The position numbers and the translations under genes are program-made. Of a stretch of DNA of 39,531 bases, positions 6,446-17,588 are shown piece by piece. The stretch is from Bacteroidales bacterium (GTDB lineage Bacteria; Bacteroidota; Bacteroidia; Bacteroidales; VadinHA17): positions 1 through 39,531 of the forward strand of contig JANYJP010000047.1 of the NCBI GenBank assembly GCA_025358455.1, read 5' to 3'. The first letter of the stretch is position 1. The number at the start of each line of letters is the position of its first letter. The notes under the pieces were generated by a model that was not told the DNA's origin, made no database searches, and saw nothing but the letters and a program-made list of their open reading frames with translations.

Positions 6446-7315
6446 TTGAAAACGACTGTAAATAAATCTTTTACGCTGATTGAGTTTCTTATAGAGCAGT
6501 ATCCTGATTCTCCCCGGACAAGGGTAAAAAAGTTACTTCAGAGCGGTGTGATCCGGATAAATAGCAAACCGGTTACATTACATTCCTATCCAATCAAGCC
6601 CGGAGATATTGTTGAGATCAATCACCACGATTTGAAAGCATCAAAAGTTGAGGTTCCATTCCCCGTTTTATATGATGACCAAAGTGTTATTGTGATCGAG
6701 AAACCAGCCGGCATATCAACTTCAAGTACCGATGGAAGCAAAAATGTCCAGGATATCCTTTCGGAGTTCCTGAAAAAACAAAGCGTTGGTAAAATCAGGT
6801 CATATGTTGTGCATCGGCTCGATAAAGAAGTATCAGGAATATTGCTGTTTGCCAAGACGCGTGAGATAATGGAAACGATTAAAGAAAAATGGGAAGAAAC
6901 TGAAAAACATTATTATGCCCTGGTCGAAGGAGTTCCTCCGGAAGCTGAAGGCACTATTAAAAGCTGGCTAATGGAAGACAAGTCACAGAAAGTACATTCG
7001 ACACATGAAACACCTAACGCTAAATTTGCAATAACAAACTATAAATTAATAAGACCGGTAAATGAGTATTCGCTTCTGGATATTAAAACTGATACCGGTC
7101 GGAAGAATCAGATAAGAGTTCACCTTTCAGATATAGGCTGCCCAATAGTAGGAGATCGCAAATACGGTGCATCCGCGAAATTTATTCGCCGTGTGAGGCT
7201 TCATGCATATTCCTTGTCTTTTCCTCATCCTGTAACCGGAAAAACAGTCTCCGTTCAATCGTCAATGCCAAAAGGGTTCCTGTCAATTAAAGATAAAGAC
7301 GAACATTATAAATAG
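6446..7315 (+). CDS. RluA-family 23S rRNA pseudouridine synthase
   Basis: A 289-residue enzyme with an N-terminal S4 RNA-binding domain (RTVRKLL-like stretch SPRTRVKKLLQSGVIRIN, about 22-39) and the RluA catalytic domain containing VVHRLDKEVSGILLFAKT; the catalytic Asp is near residue 125. The RluA family isomerises uridines in 23S rRNA or tRNA; which site cannot be read from sequence. The start is the TTG at 6446, because an in-frame stop lies at 6431-6433 and the next in-frame ATG is far inside the domain. It faces away from cysS and ends just before an inverted repeat. Confidence 0.88.
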   Translation: MKTTVNKSFTLIEFLIEQYPDSPRTRVKKLLQSGVIRINSKPVTLHSYPIKPGDIVEINHHDLKASKVEVPFPVLYDDQSVIVIEKPAGISTSSTDGSKNVQDILSEFLKKQSVGKIRSYVVHRLDKEVSGILLFAKTREIMETIKEKWEETEKHYYALVEGVPPEAEGTIKSWLMEDKSQKVHSTHETPNAKFAITNYKLIRPVNEYSLLDIKTDTGRKNQIRVHLSDIGCPIVGDRKYGASAKFIRRVRLHAYSLSFPHPVTGKTVSVQSSMPKGFLSIKDKDEHYK

Positions 7316-7395
7316 AAAGACTAAGAGACGAAGAGACGAAGAGACGAAAATACCTGTTTCTCAGTCATTTAGTCTTTAAGTCTCTTCGTCATTTT
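7316..7395. repeat. Inverted repeat with tandem GAGACGAA units, possible terminator
   Basis: Directly after the pseudouridine synthase stop codon, the octamer GAGACGAA is repeated three times (about 7325-7348). GACGAAGAGAC (7327-7337) is perfectly complementary to GTCTCTTCGTC (7380-7390), giving an 11-bp stem with a roughly 42-nt loop that itself contains further complementarity (AGACTAA / TTAGTCT). It may act as a transcription terminator; it also looks like a dispersed Bacteroidota repeat of the AAGAGACGAAGAGACG type. Confidence 0.5.
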
Positions 7396-7437
7396 AACAC
7401 CTCATCTGTTTCAAAAAATACACAATTAATTTTAAAT

Positions 7438-7468
7438 TTTGTATTTCAAAAAATCATTCCTACCTTTG
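7438..7468 (+). promoter_or_regulatory. Promoter of the methionine operon (TTTG-N19-TAccTTTG)
   Basis: TTTG at 7438-7441 and TACCTTTG at 7461-7468 are separated by exactly 19 nt, a full match to the Bacteroidota primary-sigma consensus. Transcription would start near 7475, about 35 nt before the SAM riboswitch. Confidence 0.75.
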
Positions 7469-7508
7469 ACGCTTCAAATCAAATATTCCTTCCTTTCAAG
7501 GGTGTTTG

Positions 7509-7624
7509 ATTTTTATTAAGAAGGGTGAAGAGATTAGGCTCCGCGAAACCCTGGCAACCAAACCGCCAACTGGCGGTGAACGGTGCCAATACCTAATCCC
7601 GGAAAGCCGGGAGATGATAAAAAT
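7509..7624 (+). promoter_or_regulatory. SAM-I (S-box) riboswitch aptamer
   Basis: All hallmarks of the S-box are present in order. P1 is TTTTTAT (7510-7516) with ATAAAAA (7617-7623). P2 is GGGT (7523-7526) with ACCC (7548-7551), followed by the conserved CTGGCAACCA. P3 is CCGCC/GGCGG (7563-7576). CGGTGCCAATACC follows. P4 is CCCGG/CCGGG (7598-7611). The tertiary pseudoknot is perfect: the P2 loop ATTAGG (7533-7538) pairs with CCTAAT (7592-7597). It binds S-adenosylmethionine and should reduce expression of the metY-metX-hom-metH-metF operon when SAM is abundant. No classical terminator immediately follows the aptamer; the next elements are a short leader ORF and a hairpin. Confidence 0.95.
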
Positions 7625-7639
7625 TTTAACACGAAAACA

Positions 7640-7708
7640 ATGAATTCGATTCATTTGACACACAACAACCTCATTATGCCGCTCATGCCTATGTGCATGT
7701 GCCGGTAA
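7640..7708 (+). CDS. Met/Cys-rich leader peptide (22 aa), candidate attenuator ORF
   Basis: An ATG at 7640 (just after an A-rich stretch, 15 nt past the SAM aptamer) opens 22 codons ending TAA at 7706-7708. The last ten codons read MPLMPMCMCR, that is four Met and two Cys among ten residues, in an operon that assimilates sulfide into homocysteine and methionine. Position, size, clustering of the pathway's own end-product codons at the C-terminus, and the alternative RNA folds downstream are the classic signs of a leader peptide that senses charged tRNA. A shorter version starting at the in-frame ATG 7676 is possible. This is inference from the sequence; I know of no description of it. Confidence 0.6.
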   Translation: MNSIHLTHNNLIMPLMPMCMCR

Positions 7709-7743
7709 GAACAATTACTGCAATCCGACATTTTCTAGTTAAC

Positions 7744-7788
7744 ACCGGAGGTCATGAGCGATAGCTATATCTGTCTGTCCGGTATTTT
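7744..7788 (+). terminator. Terminator-like hairpin of the met-operon leader
   Basis: ACCGGA (7744-7749) pairs with TCCGGT (7778-7783); an inner GATA/TATC helix (7760-7771) and short CA/TG and GA/TC pairs extend it. ATTTTGT follows. The U-tract is poor, so terminator strength is uncertain. The upstream alternative, CCGGT (7702-7706) with ACCGG (7744-7748) plus CGCTCATG (7680-7687) with CATGAGCG (7753-7760), is nested and excludes the hairpin. Confidence 0.4.
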
Positions 7789-7805
7789 GTAAAATTTAAA
7801 ATTAA

Positions 7806-9115
<1,310 letters not shown>

Positions 9116-9116
<1 letters not shown>

Positions 9117-10132
9117 TGGAGATATTGAAATATAATCAACCTTTTAAGACAGAGACAGGTGCAGCGCTTCCTGGTCTTGAAATAGCATATAACACCTGGG
9201 GTTCTTTAAACAGTGAGGCTGACAACGTCATCTGGATTTGTCATGCTCTCACTGCCAACTCCGATGTGGAAGCATGGTGGCCGGGCATGGTTGGGAAAGG
9301 TCTTCTTTTTGATCCTGAGAAATACTTTATTGTATGTGCTAATGTTCTGGGGTCCTGTTATGGTACAACTGGTCCGGCATCGGTAAATCCGGTGACCGGC
9401 ACTCCCTGGTTGAATGATTTTCCTTTGATTACGATCAGAGACCTGGTAAATGTTCATGAGATACTCAGGAAACATCTGAGTATTAAACGTATTCATAGTG
9501 TTATTGGAGCCTCAATAGGAGGATTCCAATCACTTGAGTATTCGATAATGTATCCTGAAATTGTGAAGAGACTGGTATTTGTCGCTTCCAGTACTAAACA
9601 ATCACCCTGGGCAATTGCATTCAGCGAATCGCAACGGCTTGCCATGGAGGCGGATCAGACTTTTATTTCGAATGATCCTGATGGTGGCAAAAAAGGGTTA
9701 AAAGCTGCCAGATCTGTTGCACTGCTCAGTTACCGCAATGCAGCAGCTTATGATCTGACACAGGTTGAGGATGATGATGAGAAAATCTCATCTTTTAAAG
9801 CAGCTTCATACCAGGTTTACCAGGGCGATAAACTAGTTAACCGGTTCAATCCCTTTTCATATTACTGTCTTGTTCGCCTTTCCGATACCCATAACGTCGG
9901 GCGGGGAAGGGGAGGAACAGCCAAAGCGCTTTCAACTATAAAGGCGAAAACATTGTGCATTGGCATTACCTCAGATATTCTTTTCCCTGTCGTGGAACAG
10001 AAGTATGTTGCAGTTAATATCCCTGGAGCACAATATGTTGAGATCGATTCCTTTTATGGTCACGACGGGTTTCTGATAGAAGTGAAACTTGTAACTGAAG
10101 CTGTAATAAAGTTCTGGGAAAAAACAGTGTAA
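9116..10132 (+). CDS. metX: Homoserine O-acetyltransferase
   Basis: A 338-residue alpha/beta hydrolase-fold acyltransferase. Family motifs: ICHALTANSD near residue 40, GTTGPASVNP about 82-91, and the nucleophile elbow GASIGGFQSLEYS with Ser near 132. The Asp near 285 (TSDILFP) and His near 316 (GHDGFLIE) complete the triad. It acetylates homoserine to provide the MetY substrate. The ATG shares one base with the metY TAA, implying translational coupling. Acetyl versus succinyl specificity is inferred from pairing with metY. Confidence 0.94.
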
Positions 10133-10156: not shown

Positions 10157-11359
10157 ATGACACAGCAGAAATTAAGAATAGGCTTATTCGGCTACGGATG
10201 CGTTGGGCAGGGACTTCATGATGTACTGAACAGCAGCAAAGGATTCAAAGCAGACATTATTAAAATTTGCGTTAAAGACCGGACAAAAAAGAGAAGGATC
10301 CCGATGACGAATTTCACTTTCGATAAAAATGAGATCCTTAACGATTCATCAATAAACCTGGTTGTAGAACTTATTGACGATGCAGATGAGGCATTCAACA
10401 TTGTTACAACCGCGATGAAAAGCGGTAAAAATGTCGTTACTGCCAATAAAATGATGGTGGCAAAACACTTCAAGGAACTTGTTGATCTACAAACAGAATA
10501 TAATGTGTCACTTCTCTATGAAGCTTCAGCCGGCGCTAGTATTCCGATTATCAGAAACCTTGAAGAATATTATGATAATGAGTTACTCTACTCTTTACGC
10601 GGGATACTTAATGGGACTACAAATTATATCCTCACAAAAATGCATAACGAGGGAATTACTTATTCAAAAGCATTAATGGAAGCACAGGAGAAAGGTTTTG
10701 CCGAGTCAGATCCTACCCTTGATGTTGAAGGATGGGATGCCAAGTATAAGCTTTGCATTATTACCGGGCATGCTTACGGACTTTTTCTTAAACCGGAAGA
10801 AGTCTTTCATTATGGCATTAATAAGATCTCAGAATTTGACATTCAATATGCCAAAGAAAAAGGATTTAAGATCAAACTGGTGCCATATGTTGGCAAAACG
10901 AACGAAAATACTATAACCAGTTTTGTACTTCCACGGTTTATTTCATCCGACAAATATTTATATAATGTTGATAACGAGTACAATGGGGTAATAACTGAAG
11001 CCGCATTTGCCGATAAGCAATTTTTCAGCGGCAAGGGTGCAGGCGGGCATGCAACAGGTAGCGCGGTGCTTTCCGATATTTCAGCAAATTCATATGGATA
11101 CAGGTATGAATACAAAAAATTTCAGCAGGGAACCGTTTCTAATTATACCCGTAATCATAAACTTGAAATTTATCTGAGGTATAATGATGAAAAGGACAGG
11201 GAATTATTTGGATTTGAGGAAGTCTCGGAATACTTTAGCGGGAAATTTTATAAATATGTTATCGGAGTTGTAAATCTTGAAAGACTTTACATTTTGAGGG
11301 AACAACTTCGTTATCTGGATGTCTTTATAGTAAATACCGGACGGAAAGGAATACTTTAA
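10157..11359 (+). CDS. hom: Homoserine dehydrogenase
   Basis: A 400-residue NAD(P)-dependent dehydrogenase reducing aspartate semialdehyde to homoserine. N-terminal Rossmann fold [12 protein letters not shown] (9-20), NVVTANKMM (about 95-103), the catalytic-domain signature [12 protein letters not shown] (about 151-162), [15 protein letters not shown] with the catalytic Asp/Lys, and [17 protein letters not shown] near 292-308. No separate ACT domain is evident at the C-terminus and there is no fused aspartokinase. Its place between metX and metH ties it to methionine rather than threonine supply. It ends TAATG, overlapping metH by one base. Confidence 0.93.
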
Positions 11360-14300
11360 TGAAATACTCACTGGAACAGCTAATTCAACAAAAAATTCTA
11401 ATTCTTGATGGGGCCATGGGCACCATGATCCAAAAACACAAGCTTCAGGAAAGCGATTTCCGTGGCGAGAAGTTCAAAGATCATCCTCGCCTCCAGAAAG
11501 GGAATAACGATCTGTTATCCATTACTCAACCTAAGATAATTAAAGGTATCCACCTGCAATATCTTGAGGCCGGAGCAGATATAATTACAACCAACACATT
11601 CAATTCCAACAGGATTTCCATGTCGGATTATGGATTGGAGAACCGTGTCTACGAGTTAAATCTTCAATCAGCCCGACTAGCGGCTGAAGCAATAATTGAA
11701 TTTGAAAACTCAGGGGAACCTGAAGGACACTTTATAGCGGGAACTCTCGGACCCACAAATCGGACTGCATCAATGTCATCTGATGTCAACGATCCGGGTG
11801 CAAGAGCAGTGACTTTTGATCAGCTTGTTGAGGCATATTCCGAACAGGCCCGGGGACTCATTGATGGCTGTGTTCATGTTCTTCTTGTTGAAACAGTTTT
11901 TGATGTTCTTAATTGCAAAGCTGCCCTTTATGCAATTGATTCTGTATTCAGGGAAAAAGATACCCGTCTTCCTGTGATGGTTTCAGGGACAATTACTGAT
12001 GCCAGCGGCAGAACGCTGACAGGCCAGACTCTGGAAGCATTCATGGTGTCCGTTTCACATTTTCCTCTTTTCAGCATAGGTCTGAATTGCGCTCTTGGAG
12101 CTGAACAATTACGTCCATTTGTTGAGGAACTTTCGCTTAAGTCGGGGTTCTATGTTTCTGTTCACCCTAATGCAGGCCTTCCAAACCAGTTTGGGGAGTA
12201 TGAACAATCTGCATCATTCATGGCATCCATCGCGAATGATTTCATGAAAGAGGGATGGGTTAACATTATAGGAGGCTGTTGCGGTACCACTCCACAACAT
12301 ATCAGGGAAATAGCTGAGGTATCAAAACAATACAAGCCGCGGGTAAGACCTGAAATAAAGAAATTTACAAGACTGAGCGGCCTCGAGGTCCTGACTATTA
12401 CCCCTGAAACCAACTTTGTAAACATAGGCGAACGGACGAATGTGTCAGGCTCTATTAAGTTTGCCAGGTTAATAAAAGAAGAAAAATATGATGAAGCACT
12501 GGCTGTAGCCAGGAACCAGGTCGAGGGCGGAGCTCAGGTTATCGATATCTGCATGGATGAGGCTATGTTAGATTCGGAAAAGGCAATGGTTAAGTTCGTA
12601 AATCTTATTATGTCCGAACCGGATATTTCAAAACTTCCTCTGATGATTGATTCCTCACGCTGGAACACCATTGAAGCTGCTCTTAAATGTATCCAGGGGA
12701 AATCGGTGGTAAACTCTATCAGCCTGAAGGAAGGTGAAGAAGTTTTTCTGTCGCATGCACATAAAGTGAGAAAATACGGGGCTGCTGCCGTGGTAATGTT
12801 ATTTGATGAAACAGGTCAGGCTGATACATATGAAAAGAGGATAAGTGTTGCTGAAAGATCATATCGCCTCCTGGTTGATAAGCTGGGTTTTCCTCCCGAA
12901 GATATAATTTTTGACCCTAACGTTCTCGCTGTAGCAACTGGTATTGAGGAACATAGTAATTATGCTGTAAATTTTCTCAGGGCTACTGAATGGATTAAAC
13001 AGAACCTCCCATATGCCAGGGTCAGCGGTGGCATAAGCAACTTGTCATTCTCCTTCCGCGGAACTGATAAAGTGCGCGAAGCAATGCATTCGGTTTTTCT
13101 TTTCCACGCTATAAAAGCCGGACTTGATATGGGAATTGTTAATCCCGGCATGTTACAGGTTTATACTGAAATACAGCCCGATCTTTTGCATCTTGCTGAA
13201 GACGTGGTACTAAACCGGAGAAAGGATTCCACTGAAAGGCTTGTGAAATTTGCTGAAGGAATTAAAAATGAAGGGAAGAAACCAGAGAAAGAAGACGCGT
13301 GGCGTCAGCTTCCGGTTATCGACCGTATAAAACATTCTCTTATCCGGGGACTCGATGAATTTATAGAACAGGATGTTGAGGAGGCACGTTCTCTTTTCAG
13401 ACGTTCGATTGAACTTATTGAAGGTCCTTTGATGGGAGGCATGAATGAAGTGGGTGATCTATTTGGTTCAGGTAAAATGTTCCTTCCACAGGTAGTCAAG
13501 AGTGCCCGTGTAATGAAAAAAGCTGTTTCAAAACTGTCACCATATATTGAATTGGAAAGTGAGGGAGAAGAGAAAAAAATTGCCGGAAAAGTTTTGCTGG
13601 CAACAGTAAAGGGCGATGTGCACGACATTGGAAAGAATATAGTTGGTGTTGTACTTTCGTGCAATAACTATGAGATAATTGATCTTGGGGTAATGGTCCC
13701 TGCAGAAAAGATTATTGACACTGCCATTAAAGAAAATGTTGATATAATTGGTCTAAGCGGATTGATCACTCCTTCACTCGAGGAGATGGTTCATGTAGCT
13801 TCTGAAATGGAGCGCAGGAAACTTCAGATTCCGCTTCTTATTGGTGGTGCAACAACATCAGAAATTCATGCAGCAGTAAAGGTGGCGCCGGCGTATTCAA
13901 ATGCAGTAATTCATGTTAAAGATGCATCAAAGGCTGCAGGAGTTCTGTCATCATTGCTTCAGAAGGAGAATAGACTATATATAAAGGGCATTAAAGACAA
14001 ATACAGGAAGATGAATGAGGATTATGCCTCACGCCAAACTGATAAAAACCTGATATCCTTAACTGAAGCAAGAAAGAATAAGTACGTTACTGACTGGAAA
14101 TCTGCGAAGTTGTTCGAACCGCTAAAACCAGGTCTTCACGTTTTACAGGGTATTGATATAAAAGAACTTTCAACCTATATAGACTGGACCTATTTTTTCT
14201 TTGCATGGAAAATATCAGGTAAATATCCGGCGATATTCAGTGATCCGGTAAAAGGTGTTGAGGCAAAAAAACTGTTTGATGATGGACTTTTATATCTTAA

Positions 14301-15009
14301 AGAAATAATTGATCAAAAGCTTCTGACCGTAAAGGGAGTATTAGGATTGTTCCCGGCTGTTTCTGACGGAGATGATGTTAAGGTATATACTGACAAGAAC
14401 AAAAAAATAATGAAATCGGTTTTCAGGTTTTTAAGAAACCAGGAAACAAAAGAAAAAGGTGTTCCGAACCTCTCTCTTTCTGATTATATTGCACCTGAAT
14501 CTTCAGGATTAGTTGATAATATCGGAGCTTTTGTGGTAACTGTTGCAATTGATAATGTGGCGTTTGTAAAGTACAAAGATGATGATTACGCAACTATTAT
14601 GATCAGGATCCTGAGCGACCGTCTTGCTGAAGCTGCCGCAGAGTGGCTCCATGAAAAAGTCAGACGTGAATACTGGGGTTATGCAGCTCACGAAAATCTT
14701 ACTATTGATGAAGTGCTGAAGCTTAAATATAAGGGGATCAGACCGGCTCCCGGCTATCCCGCATGTCCTGACCATACAGAAAAAAGGGTTTTGTTTGATC
14801 TCCTCGGCGCTGAGAAAATGGTCGGAGCTGAACTTACTGAAAACTTTGCAATGGCGCCACCTGCATCAGTGAGCGGATACTATTTCGCACACCCGGGATC
14901 AACTTATTTTAATATTGGTAAATTAAGTGCAGATCAGCTGAAGGATTATGCAGCACGAAAAAATATGACTATTGAAGAAGCTGCCAGATGGCTGGCTCCT
15001 AACTTATGA
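11359..15009 (+). CDS. metH: Cobalamin-dependent methionine synthase
   Basis: A full-length 1216-residue MetH with all four modules. The homocysteine-binding barrel (1-330) has [10 protein letters not shown] and the zinc cysteines in [10 protein letters not shown] and [11 protein letters not shown]. The methyl-folate pterin-binding domain (about 350-620) contains [11 protein letters not shown]. The B12 cap and binding domain (about 660-890) has [14 protein letters not shown] and [11 protein letters not shown], whose His is the lower cobalt ligand. The C-terminal reactivation domain (about 920-1216) has [15 protein letters not shown] for SAM binding. It methylates homocysteine using methyl-THF made by the next gene. 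The organism therefore needs cobalamin for this step unless a MetE lies elsewhere. Confidence 0.97.
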
Positions 15010-15018
15010 TTTTAATAT

Positions 15019-15972
15019 ATGAGTGTTATTGATAAAATTAAGAATGCCTCCGGGCCTTTATTTACCTTTGAATTATTACCCCCACTTAAAGGGCATAGTA
15101 TTGAAAGAATTTATACTGCAATCGACAGACTTATCGAATACGCGCCTGCTTATATAAATTTTACTTCACATCGAAATGAAATTGTGTTCAGAGAAAGACC
15201 TGACGGCCTTATTGAAAAAAGGATTACAAGGATTCGTCCAGGGACAATCGCCCTGGCTGCAGCTGTAAAATATAAGTACAATATTCCGGTTGTTCCTCAT
15301 CTTCTGTGCGGTGGATTCAGTAAAGAAGAGACTGAAAATGTTCTGATTGAAATGAGATTCCTCGGGATTGATGATGTTCTTGCGCTGAGGGGTGATCCTC
15401 AGAAAGGAAGCAGAACATTTATCCCGGAAAAGAATGGGCATACTTATACATCTGATCTTGTTGTGCAGATAGCCGATATGAACAGGGGAAAATATCTTGA
15501 GGACAATCTTGAAAATGCCGATCCGACAAATTTTTGCATCGGCGTGGCAGGCTATCCTGAAAAGCATTTTGAGGCGGCAAACAGACACATAGACATGGAG
15601 AACCTGAAGAGAAAGATTGACGCCGGAGCCGCTTACATTGTTACTCAGATGTTTTTTGACAATAACAGATTCTGCCGTTTCAGGGATGAGTGCATTAAAA
15701 ATGGGATTACCGTTCCGGTTATCCCGGGGATCAAGCCTATTTCAGCGCTGAATGACATTAAGCTGCTTCCGCAAACATTTCATATTGATTTGCCGAATGA
15801 CCTGTTCACGGCAGTTCAGAAATGCAAAAGCGACAGTGAAGCACGGGAGACAGGGATTGAATGGGCCGTAATGCAGTCTAAAGAATTAATTAAGATGGGA
15901 GTTCCCGGTATTCATTATTATACTCTCGGGCGTTCTGATAATGTAGCCAGGATTGTAAAAGCGTCGTTCTGA
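15019..15972 (+). CDS. metF: Methylenetetrahydrofolate reductase
   Basis: A 317-residue FAD-binding TIM-barrel enzyme. The N-terminal FTFELLPPLKG carries the catalytic Glu; VPHLLCGGFSKEE, DVLALRGDPQKG and AAYIVTQMFFDNNRF (about 210-224) are family signatures. It reduces 5,10-methylene-THF to the 5-methyl-THF consumed by MetH, encoded 9 bp upstream in the same operon. This is the last gene of the SAM-riboswitch operon; a 46-bp tandem repeat follows. Confidence 0.95.
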   Translation: MSVIDKIKNASGPLFTFELLPPLKGHSIERIYTAIDRLIEYAPAYINFTSHRNEIVFRERPDGLIEKRITRIRPGTIALAAAVKYKYNIPVVPHLLCGGFSKEETENVLIEMRFLGIDDVLALRGDPQKGSRTFIPEKNGHTYTSDLVVQIADMNRGKYLEDNLENADPTNFCIGVAGYPEKHFEAANRHIDMENLKRKIDAGAAYIVTQMFFDNNRFCRFRDECIKNGITVPVIPGIKPISALNDIKLLPQTFHIDLPNDLFTAVQKCKSDSEARETGIEWAVMQSKELIKMGVPGIHYYTLGRSDNVARIVKASF

Positions 15973-15988: not shown

Positions 15989-16080
15989 CCTTCCTTGCGT
16001 CGTGCGTCCTGTATCGTGTAACCTTCTTATTTTGCCTTCCTTGCGTCGTGCGTCCTGTATCCTGCAACTCTCTTATAACT
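15989..16080. repeat. 46-bp tandem direct repeat between metF and metK
   Basis: Two copies (15989-16034 and 16035-16080) share an identical 27-nt start containing TTGCGTCGTGCGTCCTGTAT and then diverge slightly (CGTGTAAC versus CCTGCAAC). The second copy reaches the metK stop codon (16073-16075). The wording resembles dispersed CGTCCTGTATCCTGCAAC elements of Bacteroidota intergenic DNA. No strong terminator hairpin is visible in this convergent gap. Confidence 0.7.
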
Positions 16081-17416
16081 TAAATGCCTTCCTGATCTTG
16101 TCAACATAATCAAGTTTTTCCCAGGCAAAGAATTCTACTTTTTTGTTATAAGCTTTTTTACCGTTGCCATTCAAAGATTTTGGCTTGCTTCCCGGAACCT
16201 CATAATATACCTCAACATTTCCGACAAAATAATCGCGTCCGAAATGCCCGTAAGATGCAGTTTGAAGAAACACAGGGTTCTTTAATCCGAAACGCTCTAC
16301 AATAGAGTAGGGACGCATATCGAAGAGTTTGTTGATCTTTAATGCGATTTCCCCGTCATGGAGGATATTCCCTTTGCTGTCTTTTACTTTAGCTGTTCCG
16401 TAAGTATTGACATACAATCCGACAGGATCTGCAACACCAATAGCATACGCAACCTGAATTAAAGCCTGGTCGCAGACGCCTGCTGCCACGAGATTCTTGG
16501 CAATATGACGTGCAGCATATGCCGCTGATCTGTCAACTTTTGAAGAATCCTTGCCTGAAAATGCACCGCCTCCATGAGCGCCATGACCTCCATAGGTATC
16601 AACGATGATTTTTCGTCCTGTAAGACCGGTATCCCCATGAGGACCTCCGATAACAAACTTACCAGTTGGATTTACCATAAGTTTGGAATCTTTATTAAAC
16701 AACTTCTGTATCCTTGCAGGAAGTGTTTTCTTAACTCTTGGTATGAGAATTTTTTCAATATCCTCCCTGATCTTATTTTGCATTGTTTTTTCTGCTACCA
16801 GTCCGGCTTTATGCGATTTGTCTTTTGGAAGAACAAATTCGTCATGCTGGGTACTGATGACTATAGTATCAATACGAAGAGGTTTATTATCATCATCATA
16901 TTCGAGGGTGACCTGAGATTTGCTGTCGGGTCTGAGGTATTTCATCTGTTTCCCTTCTCGGCGTATTGATGCAAGTTCCTGCAGTAGCCTGTGAGCCAGC
17001 TCGATAGTTAAAGGCATGTAATTATCCATCTCGCGGCATGCATATCCGAACATCATGCCCTGGTCACCGGCTCCCTGTTCTTCCGGTTTTTCACGAACAA
17101 CACCCTGATTGATATCACTTGACTGTTCATGTATTGTTGAAATAACACCGCAGGAGTCGCAATCGAATCGGTATTCAGCTTTTATATAACCAATATTACG
17201 GATCACCTCACGGGCTGTCTCCTGAACATCTACCCATCCGTTGGTACGTACTTCCCCTCCGCAGACAACGAGGCCGGTAGTTACAAATGTTTCGCAGGCA
17301 ACCTTTGATTCAGGATCCCAGCGAAGAAACTCATCCAGTAAAGCATCTGATATCTGATCGGCAACCTTGTCCGGGTGCCCTTCTGAAACTGATTCTGAAG
17401 TAAATAAATATCCCAT
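16073..17416 (-). CDS. metK: S-adenosylmethionine synthetase
   Basis: A 447-residue MetK, longer than the roughly 385 of E. coli owing to insertions such as [21 protein letters not shown]. Motifs: [20 protein letters not shown] (6-25) with the ATP-binding His, [12 protein letters not shown] (about 115-126), [21 protein letters not shown] (about 263-283), and the P-loop-like [17 protein letters not shown] (about 287-303). It makes SAM from methionine and ATP, the ligand of the riboswitch on the opposite operon. It is convergent to metF and I see no S-box in front of it; its promoter was not identified. Confidence 0.96.
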
Positions 17417-17588
17417 ATAACAATAATTAAATTATTACTAAAAATACTGATGGTAAGATTGGTTGATTGTGAAAAAGGATATTAGAAGCGGTTTAGCATT
17501 TTTTTCCTGTGGTTGCAATCAGCACAAATTTTTCCACCAAAATATAATGGTACAAAGCAAGTAAAAAAATTCAGGATTACCAAATGAA

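Follow-up and report, generated by a model that had tools for sequence, protein, structure and literature searches.

A conserved, putatively coding methionine leader peptide, commonly placed behind a SAM-I riboswitch, ahead of met operons in Bacteroidales

The methionine operon of an uncultured Bacteroidales bacterium is preceded by a short upstream open reading frame (uORF) that, judged from comparative sequence analysis, appears to be a real methionine leader: it is conserved, looks like coding sequence, sits behind a SAM-I riboswitch in most of its genus and stands free of it in some relatives. We call "the window" the whole stretch of DNA analysed, 39,531 nucleotides. With a probability of about 0.6, we read the element as a leader for ribosome-mediated attenuation whose control codons would be those of methionine (cysteine in some lineages) and whose translation would be gated by the riboswitch. 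What the initial annotation had noticed at this place is real and far beyond chance; its interpretation as a whole is partly supported.

Read codon by codon, positions 7640–7708 (+) are ATG AAT TCG ATT CAT TTG ACA CAC AAC AAC CTC ATT ATG CCG CTC ATG CCT ATG TGC ATG TGC CGG TAA and give MNSIHLTHNNLIMPLMPMCMCR, 22 codons from an ATG to the TAA at 7706–7708, and the four methionines and two cysteines claimed for the last ten codons are indeed there. The leader also lies, as first described, between a SAM riboswitch and metY. The predicted SAM-I (S-box) aptamer at 7510–7623 (+) matches the full Rfam model RF00162 (positions 1–108; 69.8 bits against a gathering score of 44.4; E 1.8e-14), is the only match to that model in the genome, and ends such that the start ATG of the uORF follows 16 nt behind it. 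Within the uORF lie the near-invariant core ATGCCTATGTGCATG (M-P-M-C-M; 7685–7699, +) and hairpin H1 (7677–7707, +), which takes in Met codons and stop by a CAUGC/GCAUG stem with outer CCG/CGG pairs. A spacer of 103 nt (7709–7811, +), in which ACCGGA (7744–7749) and TCCGGT (7778–7783) form a candidate hairpin (+), leads to an operon arranged as metY-metX-hom-metH-metF, all on the forward strand. These genes encode O-acetylhomoserine sulfhydrylase (7812–9116; TIGR01326, the NCBIfam OAH/OAS sulfhydrylase model, 625.9 bits, above cut-off), homoserine O-acetyltransferase (9116–10132, overlapping metY by one base; best match TIGR01392 with 343.5 bits, below the cut-off of 500), homoserine dehydrogenase (10157–11359; NF004976, 320.9 bits, above cut-off), cobalamin-dependent methionine synthase (11359–15009; NF007024, 1926 bits, above cut-off) and methylenetetrahydrofolate reductase (15019–15972; TIGR00676, 295.2 bits, just above the cut-off of 293.7). 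The nearest named relatives of MetY, at 89–90% identity, are from metagenome-assembled genomes (MAGs) of uncultured Bacteroidales or Bacteroidetes, and a plasmid search returned gene-level similarity to metY only, in five records.

The promoter consensus of Bacteroidota is TTTG-N19-TAnnTTTG. By eye, we located a candidate that we take to resemble it at 7437–7468 (+), consisting of TTTTG (7437–7441), 19 nt and TACCTTTG (7461–7468); a scan of 7300–8000 for sigma-70-type promoters found none. Between the pseudouridine synthase gene and this met promoter lies a repeat-like stretch, noted by eye (7318–7390; agactaagagacgaagagacgaagagacg ... gtctcttcgtc), which is perhaps the end of the upstream transcript. 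At gathering scores, SAM-I and SAM-II were the only Rfam models listed for the whole window, with no T-box. The SAM-II riboswitch (RF01726, 54.2 bits; 17483–17543, −) precedes metK (16073–17416, −), and metK and the metY-metF operon are convergent. The window thus has SAM riboswitches of two classes some 10 kb apart, SAM-II before the maker of SAM and SAM-I before the makers of methionine.

Conservation of the leader was assessed under one rule, by which a uORF had its first ATG at base 5–20 behind the aptamer and 6–99 codons to its stop, and counted as Met/Cys-tailed with at least two Met or Cys within its last ten codons. Which gene counted as the first recognised one was decided by tblastn with four window proteins, which is why an amino-acid kinase gene can intervene between leader and metY (L034, L063). 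SAM-I occurs in 60 of the 98 genomes of the GTDB family, at 64 places, all of which were read. Where metY is the first recognised gene, 43 of 44 loci have a uORF and 42 of 44 a Met/Cys-tailed one; before other genes the respective numbers are 11 and 8 of 20, with no uORF at the usual place in nine of the 20. Six SAM-I loci of the family (L041, L043, L046, L051, L052, L054), from three genomes of the window's genus and three of another genus, combine aptamers of 107–108 nt with the absence of a leader ORF where one usually stands. In the order, SAM-I was found in 44 of 149 genomes, two of them from the window's genus, and all 47 new places were read: a Met/Cys-tailed uORF is present at 10 of 16 metY loci and 12 of 31 others. 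Among the matches listed for the sampled rest of the class, the counts are 5 of 11 metY loci and 0 of 85 others; two of these five positives came from a MetY search outside the SAM-I sample. Other classes yielded none among the matches listed, at 16 metY loci or six others. The loci beyond the order were drawn from a class listing of more than 100 places, 66 of which were read, and from a phylum listing, of which 50 places were read, namely 10 of the 30 loci L112–L141, the 20 left out being repeats of the same genera, and 40 further stretches; L230 and L234, counted under the class, came from the MetY search. The feature is thus common in the met leaders of Bacteroidales, and the sample from the remainder of Bacteroidia showed it only before metY.

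Across family, order and class, 14 SAM-I/metY loci have no Met/Cys-tailed uORF under the counting rule, and two of them (L064, L085) have one from a second ATG. At L064, one genome of the window's genus carries a further metY that is divergent (54% identity) and has SAM-I and a 45-codon leader ending in MIMCCMCCCCMC before it; this tail resembles those of other orders, and the gene was perhaps acquired by transfer. Where identified, the genes downstream of the leaders belong to the pathway: metY, metX, metH, an amino-acid kinase gene and HcyBio, the last two each tested in one case. SAM-I with a Met-tailed leader stands before an HcyBio-type homocysteine biosynthesis gene at L014, L056 and L097, an assignment made by a PF01837 match in L014 and judged from the first residues in the other two.

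The composition of the tails is far from what base sequence alone would give. At least three Met or Cys within the last ten codons are present in 49 of 54 family uORFs (those with the first ATG 5–20 nt behind SAM-I), whereas among dinucleotide shuffles with the start codon retained the share is 1.9%. The corresponding values are 10 of 33 against 1.0% in the order and, among the matches listed, 5 of 13 against 1.1% in the rest of the class and 0 of 4 against 0.5% in other classes. Short ORFs are abundant in such genomes (13,914 ATG ORFs of 10–60 codons in 1.66 million bases on both strands, nested starts counted apart), and one might by chance fall into a riboswitch leader; given the conservation, frame and composition of this one, that explanation has a negligible claim.

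Relatives that keep riboswitch and operon also keep the ORF and its Met codons, with synonymous variation, which is the check that the initial annotation had proposed. All 22-codon uORFs of the family (n = 31) have Met at positions 16, 18 and 20 and Pro at 17. At position 19, 21 of them encode Cys, five Arg, four Asp and one Gly, with C as the third base every time. Of the Met and Cys codons first pointed out, those of Met are thus kept at positions 16, 18 and 20 in 31 of 31 uORFs, and Cys is replaced at position 19 in 10 of 31: in the window's genus the conserved signal is methionine and not methionine plus cysteine. Cysteine-rich tails are found in other orders, unlike the window's genus. 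Met-Pro-Met is present in 48 of the 50 Met/Cys-tailed family uORFs, the remaining two reading IIIWMCNLCCMF, and at the nucleotide level ATGCCTATG is found at 48 of 54 family uORF loci. Of the 98 family genomes, 68 contain the pattern ATGCCTATGNNCATG; the same pattern read backwards, as a control, gives eight matches in seven genomes. These data show that codons for the product amino acid are clustered near the end of the ORF and have been conserved there in relatives.

The N-terminal half of the leader evolves as coding sequence, with the signature of purifying selection. For codons 2–12, pN/pS among 31 family uORFs is 0.44 in frame, with 1.05 and 1.39 for the two shifts; in the closest relatives, a 19-member MN clade, it is 0.24 as against 0.89 and 1.76. 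The contrast between frames is weaker in codons 13–22 (0.46; 0.62 and 1.41). Because related sequences are dependent, we regard all these coding statistics as descriptions, not exact probabilities. Behind SAM-I, the core M-P-M-x-M, traced by ATGCCTATG, is found at 49 loci; at 48 of them it shares the frame of the first ATG, over eight distances from 42 to 99 nt; the 49th (L111, from another family) has an in-frame ATG at +40, outside the window of the rule. Coding signature and conserved frame together point to a short coding ORF ahead of a biosynthetic operon.

The constant C at the end of codon 19, whatever the residue, indicates that part of the conservation is of RNA. An alternative explanation takes this further: the conserved object would be an RNA hairpin of two CAUG palindromes, with the Met codons as its by-product. 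Besides codon 19, which ends in C whether it encodes Cys, Arg, Asp or Gly, nnCATG follows ATGCCTATG at all 49 loci that hold it, and 87.9% of the H1 cells are paired (30 distinct sequences) as compared with 21–46% when the partner is slid, a contrast favoured by the structure having been drawn from the same sequences. Covariation in H1 is modest, however. Two pairs are changed on both sides, which 255 of 500 shuffles match; 15 of 500 reach the covariation score and 41 the paired share. Nor would a hairpin explain why the frame is held at 48 of 49 loci over eight distances, why the N-terminal half carries a coding signature, or why the tails of other orders do without this sequence, and we consider the explanation quite improbable. 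H1 itself fits the attenuation reading. Its mean folding z relative to shuffles is −1.56 in the window's genus (36 loci), −1.51 in other genera of the family (14) and −0.70 elsewhere (27), so that in the window's genus the control codons are predicted to lie within a hairpin that a stalled ribosome could open.

The leaders of other lineages end in different words. Tails in other families read SMCMR, MFMR, MDMRGMRM, MRMR, SSPMRMR, DMRCMR, VIMCMC and the like. Five tails come from outside the order: SCCMCFSMC in Pedobacter arcticus (Sphingobacteriales), NCCCMMR in a MAG of Cyclobacteriaceae (Cytophagales), and NCNMCMCCCC, CCMCCCWCMCS and ACCITRMR. If codons rather than a particular sequence are read, tails that differ in wording but keep these residues in this position are to be expected. 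This bears on the idea of an arrest peptide, of which TnaC, answering to tryptophan, is an example. Here a nascent chain ending in M-P-M-x-M would stall the ribosome on a small molecule such as methionine, SAM, homocysteine or a metal. The core is certainly kept beyond what a count of Met codons needs (MPM in 48 of 50 family uORFs, Pro 17 in 31 of 31), but tails outside the family (MRMR, CCMCCCW, RMCC) share with it only Met and Cys, as codon sensing predicts, and the residues past the last Met vary. We therefore judge an arrest peptide unlikely.

The leader is not confined to riboswitch-bearing transcripts. Of 25 places read at which ATGCCTATGNNCATG lies outside known leaders, eight are met leaders without SAM-I, two have SAM-I, one is cut by a contig end and 14 are non-leaders. 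The eight, all from the family, precede metY, metH or hom (L363, L368, L377, L378, L379, L380, L387, L390), and cmscan of these loci with E values up to 1 found nothing. The peptides of L379 (MNYIHLNHNNFIMPLMPMCMCR) and L380 (MNYFHLTHNNFTMPLMPMCMCR) are plain homologues of the window peptide; L377 and L378 would need a GTG start, and the start of L387 is uncertain. Counted from the beginning of the nearest TAnnTTTG box, the likely start lies 14 nt on in L363, 45 in L368, 33 in L377 and L378, 45 in L379, 47 in L380 and 13 in L390, with no box found in L387; as background, 10,468 bases from four of the loci contain the box seven times. Were the boxes before the starts promoters, an aptamer would have no room.

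A close MetY is encoded in 21 of 60 genomes of an order sample, the window's included. Of the 20 further metY genes five could not be placed and were dropped; upstream sequence resembling SAM-I is present for six of the other 15 and absent for nine, and cmscan at gathering scores found no aptamer at the eight of these nine loci that were scanned. Among the nine, L399 (...TMPMCMCCCGNHS) and L405 (...VRMCCCKH), both from families other than the window's, have a Met/Cys-rich leader ORF, and L403 (...MQDMLMLLG) a weaker one. Two named MAGs of Bacteroidales and Bacteroidia (L231, L233) have tails ARMCF and SRMCC without SAM-I. We discarded the metY leaders of Prolixibacteraceae type, in which the Met/Cys ORFs, judged by eye in L214 and L217, seem to read the upstream gene in another frame; none of the 20 such loci has SAM-I at gathering score. 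Three arrangements thus exist: a gene behind the aptamer, a gene behind aptamer and leader together, and a gene behind the leader alone. The leader is a device of its own that is usually stacked on SAM-I in the window's genus. The sensor stacked on a riboswitch, as initially pictured, is thus present as an arrangement, but the leader is no appendage of the riboswitch, the same ORF also standing before met genes without SAM-I.

Where the two are joined, their spacing is narrow. Among 77 Met/Cys-tailed uORFs behind SAM-I, 63 start at base 13–17 and the rest at base 7–12 (bases 5–20 having been searched), which is within one ribosome footprint of P1. Three metH loci of the order have the start of their own gene at this distance behind the aptamer, at +13 (L080), +14 (L070) and +16 (L078). 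Since the uORFs start where these directly controlled genes do, the simplest reading is that SAM-I would switch translation of the leader. The same coincidence would suit a uORF whose residues are irrelevant and which, under SAM-I control, shields the RNA or couples translation to metY; the available text of PMC11260477 describes metE and ppe2 of Mycobacterium tuberculosis as modulated by uORFs behind B12 riboswitches. Such a peptide-blind role leaves unexplained the Met/Cys tails, at roughly 30–50 times their frequency in shuffles, as well as the leaders free of SAM-I, and a spacer of about 106 nt is in our judgement long for re-initiation; it appears distinctly unlikely.

Taking these data together, we propose that at low SAM the P1 helix of SAM-I would be open and ribosomes would start at the ATG 16 nt behind it, and that at high SAM the closed P1, lying inside the initiation footprint, would stop translation of the leader. 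A ribosome on the leader would meet four Met codons in the last ten. With Met-tRNA charged, it would reach the stop and be released; with charged Met-tRNA short, it would stall on the Met codons and open H1, and the changed ribosome position and fold may then permit expression of metY. Full expression of the operon would require SAM and charged Met-tRNA to be low together, an AND gate on a single transcript. The sensing half of this device is likely, as far as sequence comparison can tell.

For the output step, the comparison with trp, his, leu and thr operons had implied a terminator/antiterminator pair, for which this clade offers no support. No classical pair of trp type is evident from the terminator scan of the window (7300–8000, none listed), from the 49 family loci or from the spacer hairpin. 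The ACCGGA/TCCGGT hairpin (7744–7783) was rejected as a terminator arm of that type, being broken in several close relatives and absent from the terminator scan. Intrinsic terminators between uORF and gene number four at 49 family loci (2.4 expected), five at 22 in the order (1.8) and one at five in the rest of the class (0.1); going by the latter two counts, some lineages outside the family may make use of a terminator. A hairpin just past the stop has a mean z of −2.4 in other genera of the family (14 loci), +0.2 in the window's genus (36) and −0.7 elsewhere; absent from the window's genus, it provides no conserved output fold, and none was predicted past the stop for a clade of 14 close relatives. 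Seven loci (L018, L026, L034, L042, L062, L063, L068), from other genera and one other family, have a hairpin of about nine pairs a few bases past the leader stop that a releasing ribosome would melt. Long-range pairing between the post-stop segment and the spacer was dismissed too: it reaches p < 0.05 at six of 36 loci (L002, L006, L007, L016, L049, L059), with a mean z of −0.30 and p = 0.605 in the window.

The length of the spacer is steady in the family (median 106, quartiles 103–110). Because an intrinsic terminator is lacking, Rho-dependent termination or a structural switch of unrecognised type in the ~106-nt spacer are the candidate outputs for the window. A Rho site was sought as an excess of C over G, which 25 of 48 family spacers have, hence no bias; the proportions are 15 of 21 in the order, all five of those from the rest of the class, and 49 of 104 among direct SAM-I leaders as control. 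As a sign of a general use of leader peptides we also considered his leaders, and set them aside: runs of five His codons occur in 21 genomes, and the 20 loci read (of about 70 places) contain three short ORFs with at least four His, none recognised as a his leader.

It is tempting to speculate that a modular two-input gate operates across Bacteroidales, in which a Met-tRNA leader stands alone or behind a SAM-I element that switches translation of the leader and not of the gene, with the operon fully open only when SAM and charged Met-tRNA are both low and with other orders using their own Cys/Met-tailed versions before metY. We put this forward tentatively, at somewhat less than even odds. 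Textbook leader-peptide sensors respond to Trp, His, Thr, Leu, Ile, Val and Phe, and methionine regulation in bacteria is usually credited to SAM riboswitches, T-boxes and repressors. If true, a Met leader would fill a gap among amino-acid leader peptides, and its coupling to SAM-I would enable the cell to distinguish too little methionine for protein synthesis from too little methyl donor. With parts that are found combined, alone and in other wordings, it would moreover be a natural two-input RNA device with a logic open to comparative tests.

Amino-acid attenuators with leader peptides are known from the trp, his, thr, leu, ilv and phe operons of Proteobacteria. In position, size and composition the window's leader fits this class, as had been suggested: a short ORF with control codons clustered near its end, a hairpin overlapping them, and the operon for that very amino acid behind. 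It differs in that the codons are those of methionine, no conserved terminator/antiterminator pair was found, and many relatives have it behind a riboswitch. No Met leader peptide of this kind was found in the literature searched (open-licence full-text papers, titles and abstracts), in line with the initial remark that none was known. The literature consulted includes a survey of terminators (PMC2965389) and one of 104 motifs (PMC2864571).

For Actinobacteria, the accessible text of PMC1262725 lists leader-peptide attenuators of trp, ilv and leu and states that RNA structures before methionine operons are absent. The same text describes mycobacterial cys operons with Cys leader peptides, without conserved terminators, for which Rho was suggested. 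These resemble the window in the run of control codons near the stop, the sulfur pathway and the want of a conserved terminator hairpin; unlike the window, they use Cys codons and belong to Actinobacteria, and no riboswitch is mentioned in that text. The cysS leader uORFC-8-2 of Rhodobacterales has two Cys codons in the first hairpin of a proposed attenuator (PMC8632094, available part) and thus shares the codons within a hairpin, whereas its end is like an intrinsic terminator, its target is a tRNA synthetase gene and the part available mentions no riboswitch. Within the window's own phylum, short ORFs in long 5' UTRs of Bacteroides thetaiotaomicron are reminiscent of leader peptides (PMC7366714), and clues for leader-peptide attenuation before amino-acid operons exist in Flavobacterium psychrophilum (PMC9723704); the available parts of both reports name neither a Met leader nor a combination with a riboswitch. 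A parallel for the combination is M. tuberculosis metE and ppe2, where a B12 riboswitch and a translated uORF share one leader (PMC11260477, available text), in one case at a methionine-pathway gene. What that text describes is modulation by translation of the uORF and not codons that sense an amino acid; aptamer and phylum are different. Finally, the window's riboswitch has the full aptamer of SAM-I (RF00162), but its likely target would be the start of a leader peptide instead of a terminator or the start of the gene.
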